Below are positions 15,106 to 45,092 of a stretch of DNA of 64,000 nt, piece after piece. This stretch comes from Pseudoselenomonas ruminantium (GTDB lineage: Bacteria; Bacillota; Negativicutes; Selenomonadales; Selenomonadaceae), in the NCBI RefSeq assembly GCF_900142515.1, contig NZ_FRBC01000019.1, positions 1 through 64,000 on the forward strand. The letters run 5' to 3'. The notes beneath the pieces were generated by a model. It was not told the DNA's origin, ran no database searches, and saw only the letters and a program-made list of their open reading frames with translations. Position numbers and translations under genes: made by a program. How positions within the stretch are numbered: the stretch's first letter is position 1; every line of letters starts with the position of its first letter.

Positions 15106-16178
15106 TGGAAAATGGTATTTCGCTGTATCCGGGACTGGACAATACGCTGGCGGAGAATCTGCAGCTGTTGGAGACGGCGGCTGCCTGTGGCATTCGCCGA
15201 GTGTTCACATCCCTGCATATTCCCGAAACCGACACGGATGTGCTGAAAAAAGAACTGGCCACCATCTTGCAGGCCGCCAGAGAACACGATATGGAGATCA
15301 TTTCCGATATTTCTCCGAGGACTTTGGATATGCTGGACATGCCGGAATTCAGTCTGGAGGCGTTCCAGAAGCTGGGGATTACTACCTTGCGGCTTGACTA
15401 TGGTTATGAAGCCGGGCAGATTGCGGAGCTCAGCCATAATACGCTGGGTATCCGCTTGCAGCTCAACGCCAGTACTATTACCGAGGAGATACTAACGGAT
15501 TTACAGGCGGCTGGGACGGATTTTTCCCATATCGATGCCCTGCATAATTTCTATCCCCGTCGGGGGACGGGGCTTAGCGAGTCGGCCCTGTGCAAGAAAA
15601 ATACCATGCTCAAGCAGGCAGGAATAAAAGTGGGCGCCTTCGTGCCCAGTCACGGCAAGCAGCGTGGCCCTCTCTTTGAAGGCCTGTCCACGTTGGAGGC
15701 TCATCGCCTGTGGCAGACGGATAGGGCGGCCCGGCATATGGCGGCCTTGGGGATGGATTCGGTATTCCTGAGTGACAGTCTGCCCTTGCCATCAGAATTG
15801 CAGGCTCTGGGTAAATTGCGTGCCGATGAGGTGGCCGTAGAGGCTGTCTTCCTGACCGAAGACGAAGGGCAGCGGGAACTTCTGCGGCACACCTTTACGG
15901 CCCGGGAAGACGAAGCCCGGGATGCCATCCGTGCGCAGGAGAGCCGTGGCCTGTTGAAGGGGACGGTGGTAGAACCGGAAAATAACAAGGAGCGCCGGCG
16001 GGGAGCCATCACCATCGATAACAAGGATTATCTGCGCTATATGGGCGAACTGCAGATCATCAAAAAATCCCAGCCCCCCGATACACGGGTGAATGTAGTG
16101 GGCCGGGTGTCCGAATGTGAACTGTTCATGCTGAAATACATCACGCCAGGACGCAAGTTCTCTTTTGTATGGGGATAA
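15105..16178 (+). CDS. mupG: 6-phospho-N-acetylmuramidase, MupG/DUF871 family
   Basis: This cytoplasmic hydrolase splits MurNAc-6-phosphate-GlcNAc, the product of PTS uptake of the cell-wall disaccharide, as described for S. aureus MupG. The 357-aa protein has a TIM-barrel part (GISLYPG at the start, IISDISPRTL, LRLDYGYE, NASTITEEIL, HNFYPRRGTGLS, VPSHGKQRGPLFEGLSTLE) and a C-terminal cyclophilin-like domain (from about residue 240). The start overlaps the murQ stop; AGGGGG is 8 bases upstream. Gene order murP-murQ-mupG supports the role. Confidence 0.88.
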   Translation: MENGISLYPGLDNTLAENLQLLETAAACGIRRVFTSLHIPETDTDVLKKELATILQAAREHDMEIISDISPRTLDMLDMPEFSLEAFQKLGITTLRLDYGYEAGQIAELSHNTLGIRLQLNASTITEEILTDLQAAGTDFSHIDALHNFYPRRGTGLSESALCKKNTMLKQAGIKVGAFVPSHGKQRGPLFEGLSTLEAHRLWQTDRAARHMAALGMDSVFLSDSLPLPSELQALGKLRADEVAVEAVFLTEDEGQRELLRHTFTAREDEARDAIRAQESRGLLKGTVVEPENNKERRRGAITIDNKDYLRYMGELQIIKKSQPPDTRVNVVGRVSECELFMLKYITPGRKFSFVWG

Positions 16179-41878: not shown

Positions 41879-42567
41879 TGCTTGTCAACAAGAAATATGT
41901 CAAACGCCATGCGAAAGGCTTCGTGTATCTGCATTGGATCAACGCCATCTGCTTCTTTATGCTGTTTTTGACGGCGTTGCCGCTCTATGCCGATACCTTC
42001 AGATTCCTCTATGATATGTTTGGTGCGAAAACCCTGCAGAATGCGCATCGCTTCTTTGCTGTTCTCTTCGTGCTGAATCCTGTTATCGGCCTGTTCACCG
42101 CCAGAGGCGGCATCTGGCGCATGTTCTCCGAAGTCTTTAAGTTCAACGGCAAGGATGTGACCTTCCTGGTCAAGTTTCCCCTGGAACTCATCGGCAAGCA
42201 CCCCGAGGGCATTCCCAAGCAGGGCTTCTATAACGGCGGCGAACGCATGAACATCGCCCTGCAGCTGGCCACCTGGGCTGCCCTGGTTGTTTCCGGCGCT
42301 CTCCTGTGGTTTGGTGACGGCCTTATCGATAATAGCATCCGTGCCTGGATGATACCCATCCATAGCCTTTGCGCCGGCATCGGCTTTGCCGGCTCCATCG
42401 GCCATATCTACCTGGCCCTTGTCGCCAACCCCGACTCCGTTCACGGCATGCAGGACGGCACCATCAAAGTAGACTACGCCAGCGCCCACCACGGCGAATG
42501 GATTGACGATATGGTGAGGGAAGGGAAGATCCGGCAGAAAGACCTTGACGAAGTACTGAAACCATAA
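41875..42567 (+). CDS. fdnI: Formate dehydrogenase gamma subunit (cytochrome b556)
   Basis: FdnI takes electrons from FdnH and reduces menaquinone. The 230-aa protein has four membrane helices with the heme-ligand histidines in FVYLHWINAICF, NAHRFFAVLF and IPIHSLCAGIGFAGSIGHIY. Two adjacent ATG codons (41875 and 41878) both follow the ribosome site GAAAGGGGG. It is the last gene of fdnG-fdhE-fdnH-fdnI; a 604-bp palindromic region follows. Confidence 0.94.
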   Translation: MMLVNKKYVKRHAKGFVYLHWINAICFFMLFLTALPLYADTFRFLYDMFGAKTLQNAHRFFAVLFVLNPVIGLFTARGGIWRMFSEVFKFNGKDVTFLVKFPLELIGKHPEGIPKQGFYNGGERMNIALQLATWAALVVSGALLWFGDGLIDNSIRAWMIPIHSLCAGIGFAGSIGHIYLALVANPDSVHGMQDGTIKVDYASAHHGEWIDDMVREGKIRQKDLDEVLKP

Positions 42568-42635
42568 AAAGGAAAAATTGCAGTTTGTAGTTTAGTTCGT
42601 GCTGAAGGTATCCCGTTCATACGCAGCAGGGGTTC

Positions 42636-42817
42636 ACGGGGGAGTGCTTTTTCTGTTTCCGCTAAACGACCCTCCCTGTAAGGTTAGAGCTGTTTAGCTG
42701 GATTGCGCCGGGCAGGCCAGCGGCGCGTTTTTCAGCGTGCTCTTTAGCTGCTGTCTGCGTCGGGCCGGTCTTCGCTGCGCTCAGACGGTCGCTTCCACAG
42801 AAAAAGCACTCCCCCGT
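42636..42817 (+). repeat. Palindromic unit A
   Basis: This unit is bounded by a perfect 20-bp inverted repeat (42636-42655 with 42798-42817; GGGGGAGTGCTTTTTCTG in the left arm). The interior is GC-rich and contains further stems. Confidence 0.75.
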
Positions 42818-42939
42818 TCGCCCCCCGTCACGATTTTGGCAATTGACACGAATTCGGTTCTCCTGTAACAAGAACATCGATGTGCTTGCACCTTACAGTC
42901 GGAACATAGCAATATACTCAAACGTAACGGTGGGTGGAG

Positions 42940-43119
42940 GTGGGGATGCTTTTTCGCCGACGGAACGACTGTCCGAACGAAGTGAGGACTGGCCCGCAAA
43001 CAGTATATGCTTGACGCTTCGTTGACAGGAGCGCCGCCGGCCTGCCCGGCGCAGGTAGCTGGAAGATGCGTAATTCTGCTGGCGGGTCATTTAGTGGAGC
43101 GGCGAAAAAGTATTCCCAC
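42940..43119 (-). repeat. Palindromic unit B, inverted diverged copy of unit A
   Basis: This unit is bounded by a 20-bp inverted repeat with two mismatches (42940-42959 with 43100-43119; GGGATGCTTTTTCGCCG in the left arm). In reverse complement it aligns with unit A over most of its length, best over the GCGCCGGGCAGGCC block. Confidence 0.7.
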
Positions 43120-43206
43120 CGCCGCCCCACTGCTTTGTAACGAATTGTGTTCCAGCTCGCACCAACAAACTGCAATTTATGGTGCGGATAATTAGATAGT
43201 AAAAAC

Positions 43207-43252
43207 AAAGAAGGCGTGTTGAGTGGAAATGACTCAATACGCCTTCTTTTTG
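43207..43252. terminator. Bidirectional terminator-like hairpin
   Basis: AAAGAAGGCGTGTTGAGT pairs with ACTCAATACGCCTTCTTT (one wobble), with A- and T-runs outside. It contains the stop of the small minus-strand frame below. Confidence 0.85.
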
Positions 43253-43529: not shown

Positions 43530-45092
43530 GTGAATGAGCAAGAGACGATTGCCGGTTTGATCAAGAAACTGCTCAAGCAGATTTTCGTGATGGTGGTGGG
43601 GGTTGTGGCCATTGTGGGGGTCAGCCTGTTCCTGTTCACGAGTTATGTAGCTCTCGTCAATGACGCCGGCGTGGTGCGCGGCGGCAGCCAGCGCGTGGTG
43701 AAGCAGGTATTGGCCGGGGCGGATGCCTCTAAGACCACGGCCATGGTCGAAGGGCTGCTGACGGACATGAAGGGCCGCATGCATCTCGGCAGCTTCCCGA
43801 GCCGCCGGGATGAGGTCGAAGCTTATTGGCAGAGCGAGGTCAAGCCCGCCATTGCCGATTATCAAAAGACGAAGAATCCGGCCCATCTGCTGGAAGTCAG
43901 CGAGACGTATTTTGGCAAGACCAATGCCATGGTGGATGCAGCCCAGACCATGGTGGATGTGATGGCCGTGATTCTCTATCTTTTGCTGGCAGCATTTATC
44001 GGGGCCGTGTTTATCGTGCTGAAGCGCGTGACGGGGACTTTCGAGGAGCGGGTAGTCCAGCCGCTCTCTGCGCTGGAAGGCAGCGTGAATCAGCTGGCCA
44101 AGGGGCATATGTCCCAGAAGCTTGCTTATCCCCGCAAAGATGAGATTGGCGCGCTCTATGACCTGCTCAACGAGATGCGTCAGGAAATCTTAGGCTATGT
44201 GCAGGATATTGAAAAGAATCTCGATACCATGGCCAGCGGTGACCTTGTGAGCACCACGGACATGAAATACATCGGGGACTATGCGCCTATCCAGCAGAAT
44301 ATCAATCATATCCGCCAGACGCTCTGTCAGGAAATGCAGAGCATGGGCGAGATGGCCAGCATGGTGGCGGTGAGTGCCGGGGAAGTTTCCAAGGTTTCCC
44401 AGAGCCTGGCTGAAGGCGCCATGAGCCAGAACGAGACAGTGCAGGATCTGCAGACCAAGATTGGCGAGGCCATCGAGGAAAATGCCAAAGTGGACACGCT
44501 GGTGGACAATGCGCTGGCGGCCCGGATGCAGACCAAGGATGGCATTGCGGCTACGCAGGAGCAGATGGACAACGTGGTGACGGCCATGCAGGAAATCAGC
44601 GATGCTTCCAATGAAATCCGCTCTATCCTGGGGACGCTGGACGAAATCACGGGACAGACGGCACTCCTGTCCCTGAATGCCTCTATCGAAGCAGCGCGGG
44701 CGGGCGAAGCAGGCCGGGGCTTTGCCGTGGTTGCCGAAAATGTCCGCAAGCTTGCCGAGCAGTCTGCCGACTCCACCCAGAATATCCAGCAGCTCATCAG
44801 CCGTGCTTTGGCCGCTATCGACCGGGGGACCAAGGTGGTCAATACCGCCGCGGAAGCTCTGTCCAGCACGGGAAAGAATACGGAAGTGGTCGACGAAGCG
44901 TTCCGCAAGCTCAAGGAACAGAGTGCTGCCCAGCAGGTGAAGATGGAAGCGGTCAATTCCTTGTCCAGCGACATCCTGGGTGTGGTTACCGACAACAGTG
45001 CTGTATCTGAAGAATGTGCGGCATCCAGTACGGAGCTTTCGAATTTCTCCGATTCCTTGAAGGAAAGCGTGAACAAATTCCGTACATCATGA
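43530..45092 (+). CDS. Methyl-accepting chemotaxis protein with NarX/PilJ-like sensor motif
   Basis: This 520-aa chemoreceptor has membrane helices at about residues 18-40 and 143-164 and a short, probably four-helix, periplasmic domain of about 100 aa. Its first helix holds [16 protein letters not shown] (residues 43-58), which resembles the P-box of NarX/NarQ and PilJ-type nitrate sensors. HAMP segments follow, then the signalling domain with tip [22 protein letters not shown]. The start is GTG (an overlapping ATG is followed at once by a stop); GGAAGGA lies 9 bases upstream. Nitrate sensing is an inference from motif and neighbours. Confidence 0.85.

Follow-up and report, generated by a model that had tools for sequence, protein, structure and literature searches.

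It is still an open question how intergenic repeats persist in bacteria, and the usual answer is that a transposase must have moved them. REP sequences are palindromes of about 20-40 bp with a conserved head, and REPINs are about 100 bp long. The closest described systems are the REPINs and REP-BIMEs that accompany RAYT transposases (PMC3116915), and the element reported here resembles them in being an extragenic inverted doublet of a palindromic unit that occurs in many copies and is predicted to form hairpins in single-stranded DNA. Unlike REPINs (PMC3116915), it is about 604 bp long with nested units and terminal inverted repeats, it does not depend on a Y1/RAYT transposase (none is present in the copy-rich genomes G017, G011 and G012), and its copies become alike and change orientation while their sites stay fixed. 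Bacterial MITEs and MITE-like repeats such as ERIC, YPAL and Bcr1 (PMC2267715) are likewise intergenic, non-coding and able to form stem-loops. Our element shares terminal inverted repeats and internally deleted short forms with MITEs, but it is three to five times longer than ERIC, YPAL and Bcr1 at the sizes given in PMC2267715, and it has two inverted units, no target duplications at the copies inspected and, by exact pattern in three genomes, no autonomous partner with the same ends. REPs are themselves known as targets of insertion sequences, including ISPpu9, ISPpu10 and others (PMC1525189). The literature on Selenomonas repeats yielded nothing relevant, and the nested-palindrome family seems to be undescribed so far.

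Architecture and distribution of the element

In the window (the whole stretch of 64,000 nucleotides that was analysed), the element is intergenic, lying between a cytochrome-b-like dehydrogenase subunit gene with its stop at 42567 and a methyl-accepting-type gene starting at 43530 (Table 1). The first-pass annotation had described outer arms that match exactly over 14 bp, a pair of inverted units, each about 180 bp long with closing arms of 20 bp, and symmetry about 42877, and all three were borne out. The outer arms are 100% complementary over 14 nt, and the 604 bp are nearly symmetrical about 42877, with a small central palindrome centred at 42878.5, about 2 bp from the geometric centre of the element. 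Unit 1 has wider arms of 28 nt at 89% (42629-42656 / 42797-42824), of which the inner 20 nt are exact and bound a unit of 180 bp; the unit 2 arms match at 86% over 28 nt. As had been anticipated, the homology of the two units extends beyond their end repeats: unit 1 and inverted unit 2 are 68.9% identical over 196 columns of the family consensus (E 7e-12) and 68% within the window copy, with inverted cross-unit matches at 42704-42737 / 43020-43053 (82%) and 42800-42835 / 42920-42955 (75%). The longest open frame varies between copies, the lengths of which differ by 1-2 bp.

Table 1. Coordinates of the element, its parts and neighbouring features in the window
Feature	Position	Strand	Remarks
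Complete copy of the dispersed nested-palindrome element	42575..43178	+	604 bp; ends match copies at other sites
Left terminal inverted repeat AAATTGCAGTTTGT	42575..42588	+	Repeat finder
Right terminal inverted repeat, reverse complement of the left	43165..43178	-	Repeat finder
Unit 1	42637..42816	+	Exact 20-bp arms 42637-42656 / 42797-42816; arms covary across 88 copies
Unit 2, inverted diverged copy of unit 1	42932..43127	-	Arms 42932-42959 / 43100-43127; arms covary
Inner G+C-rich hairpin GCGCCGGGCAGGCCAGCGGCGC of unit 1	42704..42737	+	Inverted counterpart 43020-43053; junction of the ~278-bp G017 short forms falls nearby
Central near-perfect palindrome CAAGAACATCGATGTGCTTG	42869..42888	.	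ACATCGATGT nearly invariant across species
Counterpart of one mirror-image IS1182 target site of G017 (GTTCGCCCC)	42816..42824	+	
Counterpart of the other IS1182 target site of G017 (GGGTGGCGG there)	42932..42940	+	
Terminator-like hairpin AAAGAAGGCGTGTTGAGT / ACTCAATACGCCTTCTTT, outside the element	43207..43249	+	Repeat finder

The genome to which the window belongs (G000) was searched with each half of the element, which was found at about 30 places, at intergenic sites and in many cases at full length. The copy number is at least 25-30 in this genome and about 25-40 per genome across carriers. Among 40 relatives plus G000, the whole element matched 15 of the 22 Selenomonas genomes (G000 included) with identities of about 70-86% and a conserved length (597-613 bp among extracted copies), whereas seven genomes of the genus showed no match and none of the 19 genomes outside it matched. 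A scan of 84,980 species genomes for the end pattern returned 46 stretches, all Selenomonas, whose titles name S. ruminantium in 45 cases and Selenomonas sp. AE3005 in one. None of the viral contigs scanned has the end pattern and the phage collection gave only a weak chance match, and a phage origin of the element was rejected. The 604-bp palindrome is one copy of a non-coding, dispersed family of nested DNA palindromes that occurs only in rumen Selenomonas, in the S. ruminantium group, and the earlier suggestion of a Selenomonas-type repeat family is strongly supported. Many contig ends fall inside copies, and the family accounts for breaks between contigs in assemblies of Selenomonas.

Short one-unit forms of 261-300 bp were observed in G017 (L156, L157 and L158) and G000 (L159 and L160). 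The junction of the G017 short forms has a 17-bp overlap, which fits a deletion from one inner G+C-rich hairpin to the other. Copies seem to lie just upstream of rRNA operon promoter regions at L096 and L099 (G017) and at L008 (G000). Many copies adjoin terminator-like hairpins of the same sort as the one at 43207-43249; a recurrent hairpin of this kind, AGTCCGCTGAC ... GTCAGCGGACTTTTT (e.g. at L010, L011 and L063), looks like a repeat family itself.

Fixed sites, random orientation and homogenised copies

Flanks were compared for the copies in G000, G017 and G011. Judged by their flanks, most G000 sites are the same loci in G017, and at 18 comparable sites the element was inverted at 10 and in the same orientation at 8, a count that includes some sites across contig ends (each flank on its own contig) and some placed by one flank only. 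At G000/G017 junctions conservation of the flanking bases reaches right up to the terminal repeat, and at some sites the outermost bases remain those of the site despite the reversed body (AATATgtagattt at L161/L100, CAACTTgtat at L015/L157), indicating that the exchange lies inside the terminal repeats. Genome G004 has an inverted element at the site of the window copy, at the uvrB site and at the site of G017 copy L092, the last with flanks conserved almost to the base. Full and short forms alternate at one site, as in L006 (full) and L156 (277 bp), or L025 (261 bp) and L098 (full). No gene-direction preference of the copies was apparent, and no replichore preference was seen when copy strands were compared with skew switch points. 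Origin-proximal clustering, apparent in G011 by coordinate, was dropped because GC skew puts the origin near 0.5 Mb.

Sites differ between more distant species, and some real insertion or loss of sites therefore occurs. Clean empty sites were sought at several loci, where the relative mostly had an element (often inverted), other DNA or no such locus; a probable empty site, L101, has AAATT where homology ends on the left side. Near 15,760-15,910 of G000 contig C55 (L200 ~1870-2020), a different palindromic repeat, CCCCCTTTAGGGGGA ... TCCCCCTAAAGGGGG, lies where G017 and G004 carry the element. The left and right flanks of one G017 site (L154) are found at two different G000 copies (L012 and L043), which suggests a rearrangement through recombination between copies.

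A tree of full copies clustered them strictly by genome and species; a diverged G000 copy, L019, fell outside the main G000 cluster, yet not with the copies of another genome. Copies within G017 are 93-97% identical. The identity of orthologs, set against the mean of the other copies, was 86.0% vs 87.0 for L003/L105, 86.9 vs 86.1 for L011/L094 and 84.7 vs 84.8 for L014/L093, and G011 orthologs were likewise no closer than other copies. Strict clustering by species together with orthologs that are no closer than other copies indicates that the sites are fixed while the bodies are homogenised and the orientation is randomised. Copies are thus homogenised within a genome, and the orientation at a given site is effectively random between species. 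Where the first-pass annotation spoke of old copies, this is true of the sites and the architecture; the copies within a genome are instead young or homogenised, as the identities in G017 illustrate.

We lean, by a modest degree, towards a lineage-specific DNA palindrome family that is maintained by recombination between its copies, with gene conversion and flipping at the inverted ends. The palindromic units would extrude or form hairpins or cruciforms during replication, and stalls or breaks at the hairpins would be repaired by gene conversion with other copies as template. As each end is an inverted copy of the other, repair, or a template switch between the ends, would often flip the element in place. 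Survival of the family would then depend mainly on copies that recombine with one another while staying in place, sites being gained or lost now and then, and not on an active transposase. A related but unlikely possibility is that a trans-acting recombinase of the host or of a parasite drives a homing-like cassette replacement without transposition, in which one element is copied over another in either orientation at random and the sites remain fixed.

Transposition, inversion and host function

It is also possible, though doubtful, that the element is a non-autonomous transposon of the MITE-like kind, with a transposase that recognises the AAATTGCAGTTTGT ends moving it in trans, and that the apparent fixed sites are hot spots re-entered either way, possibly at AAATT targets. 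The terminal inverted repeats, the lack of coding capacity, the intergenic spread, the random orientation, the shorter derivatives of 261-300 bp and the AAATT at the left flank of L101 all suit such a transposon. However, every exact occurrence of AATTGCAGTTTGT in G000, G017 and G011 lies at or beside a copy of the element, and no transposase gene flanked by exact terminal repeats was seen in these three genomes. The search, in which reversed controls gave zero, covers the exact pattern; by this pattern, an autonomous partner with the same ends was rejected, though a partner may have divergent ends. Target-site duplications, which had been proposed as a check, did not appear as direct duplications at the copies inspected; a 4-bp AATT inside the ends may be one. 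Moreover, from one species to another the body changes at sites that are otherwise preserved almost to the base. The element may nevertheless be descended from a MITE. A RAYT/REP model was rejected because the Y1/RAYT transposase (PF01797) is absent from G017, G011, G012, G001 and G002, all of which have many copies, and the unit of about 180 bp and the element of 597-613 bp are outside the REP and REPIN size range. The first impression that the locus is neither a simple REP nor a usual MITE therefore stands.

The near 50:50 orientation goes beyond what would be favoured by ordinary RecA gene conversion across 600 bp, which leaves room for a dedicated recombinase. Like an invertible segment, the element has inverted repeats and differs in orientation at the same site between species, and a site-specific recombinase acting on the terminal repeats would make the copies a genome-wide set of such segments. 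Inversion at about half of the 18 sites comparable between G000 and G017 would follow from this, as would crossovers inside the 14-21-bp ends that leave the outermost bases with the site. Nevertheless, we consider this distinctly unlikely, since flipping alone leaves homogenisation unexplained, no conserved internal reading frame would make a switch useful, the terminal repeats are imperfect in many copies, and no site-specific recombinase was identified in a search for Y1 alone.

The strong conservation of the arms and the central palindrome across species that are only about 70-75% identical overall could point to a host-maintained DNA site with a BIME-like role: a binding site for nucleoid proteins, gyrase or structural-maintenance proteins, an orientation-independent insulator or a bidirectional terminator. 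The fixed intergenic sites, often beside terminators, and the irrelevance of orientation would agree with this, and any host role, whether as a BIME-like protein or gyrase site or as an insulator beside terminators, would need to be independent of orientation. Such a function appears quite improbable, however, given that 7 of the 22 genomes of the genus are without a match, that sites turn over between more distant species and that no binding protein is known.

Pairing within units, IS1182 insertions and the pSR1 record

The predicted single-strand fold of the element is about 14.8 s.d. better than that of shuffles and is nearly strand-symmetric. Across 88 copies, the unit arms had 65 and 132 double changes where shuffles averaged 17 and 52, with 0-12 in slid controls, whereas cross-unit pairing gave 71 against a shuffle mean of 60 and a maximum of 77, which is no excess. 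One long fold-back hairpin was rejected as the functional structure, since the cross-unit pairs lack covariation. An RNA would tolerate G-U pairs on its own strand. The ratio of G-U to A-C was 65:91 in the unit arms, showing no G-U excess, and that of G-T to A-C mismatches was 11:13 in a strand-neutral pair set. Strong arm covariation free of a G-U bias indicates that constraint or correction acts on DNA pairing within each unit, and the comparison of copies demonstrates that it is the pairing of DNA, unit by unit, that is selected or repaired, and not an RNA or one long hairpin. The covarying arms could instead be protein-binding half-sites. A large structured RNA, as the first-pass annotation had allowed, with about 30 copies encoding it, is hardly tenable despite the strong predicted fold, because no Rfam family matches the element at gathering or relaxed thresholds, the fold is nearly the same on both strands, covariation with G-U tolerance on one strand was not found, orientation relative to genes is random, and the cross-unit pairs of the minimum-energy fold do not covary.

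Genome G017 (C1, L151-L155, e.g. L151:1228-2938) carries an IS1182-family element (NF033551) of 1711 bp in six essentially identical copies, five of them inside the palindrome element and one at another place. Both orientations occur among the five insertions. The target is GGGYGGCGG of unit 2 in four cases and, in the fifth, its mirror image GTTCGCCCC within unit 1. Target duplications of 9 bp could be read for four insertions; for L154 the right junction was not resolved. As with the REP-targeting insertion sequences (PMC1525189), an insertion sequence chooses a palindromic repeat as its target, but here the target is a new palindrome family with two mirror-image positions and 9-bp duplications.

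The published S. ruminantium plasmid record pSR1 (NC_002139.1, L061), of 4692 bp, corresponds in length and ends to G000 C49:9811-14503, which lies between two HindIII sites, each inside a direct copy of the element, and its flanks are 100% identical to the G000 chromosome over 805 and 941 bp. To judge from this identity, the record is not independent of the chromosome; it is probably not a plasmid, and would be either a piece of the chromosome that was cloned or a circle excised between the two copies.

With old sites, young copies and random orientation, the family separates copying from insertion. It gives a clear example from nature of bacterial concerted evolution at fixed sites and with random orientation, and it offers a test system for palindrome-driven gene conversion in bacteria.
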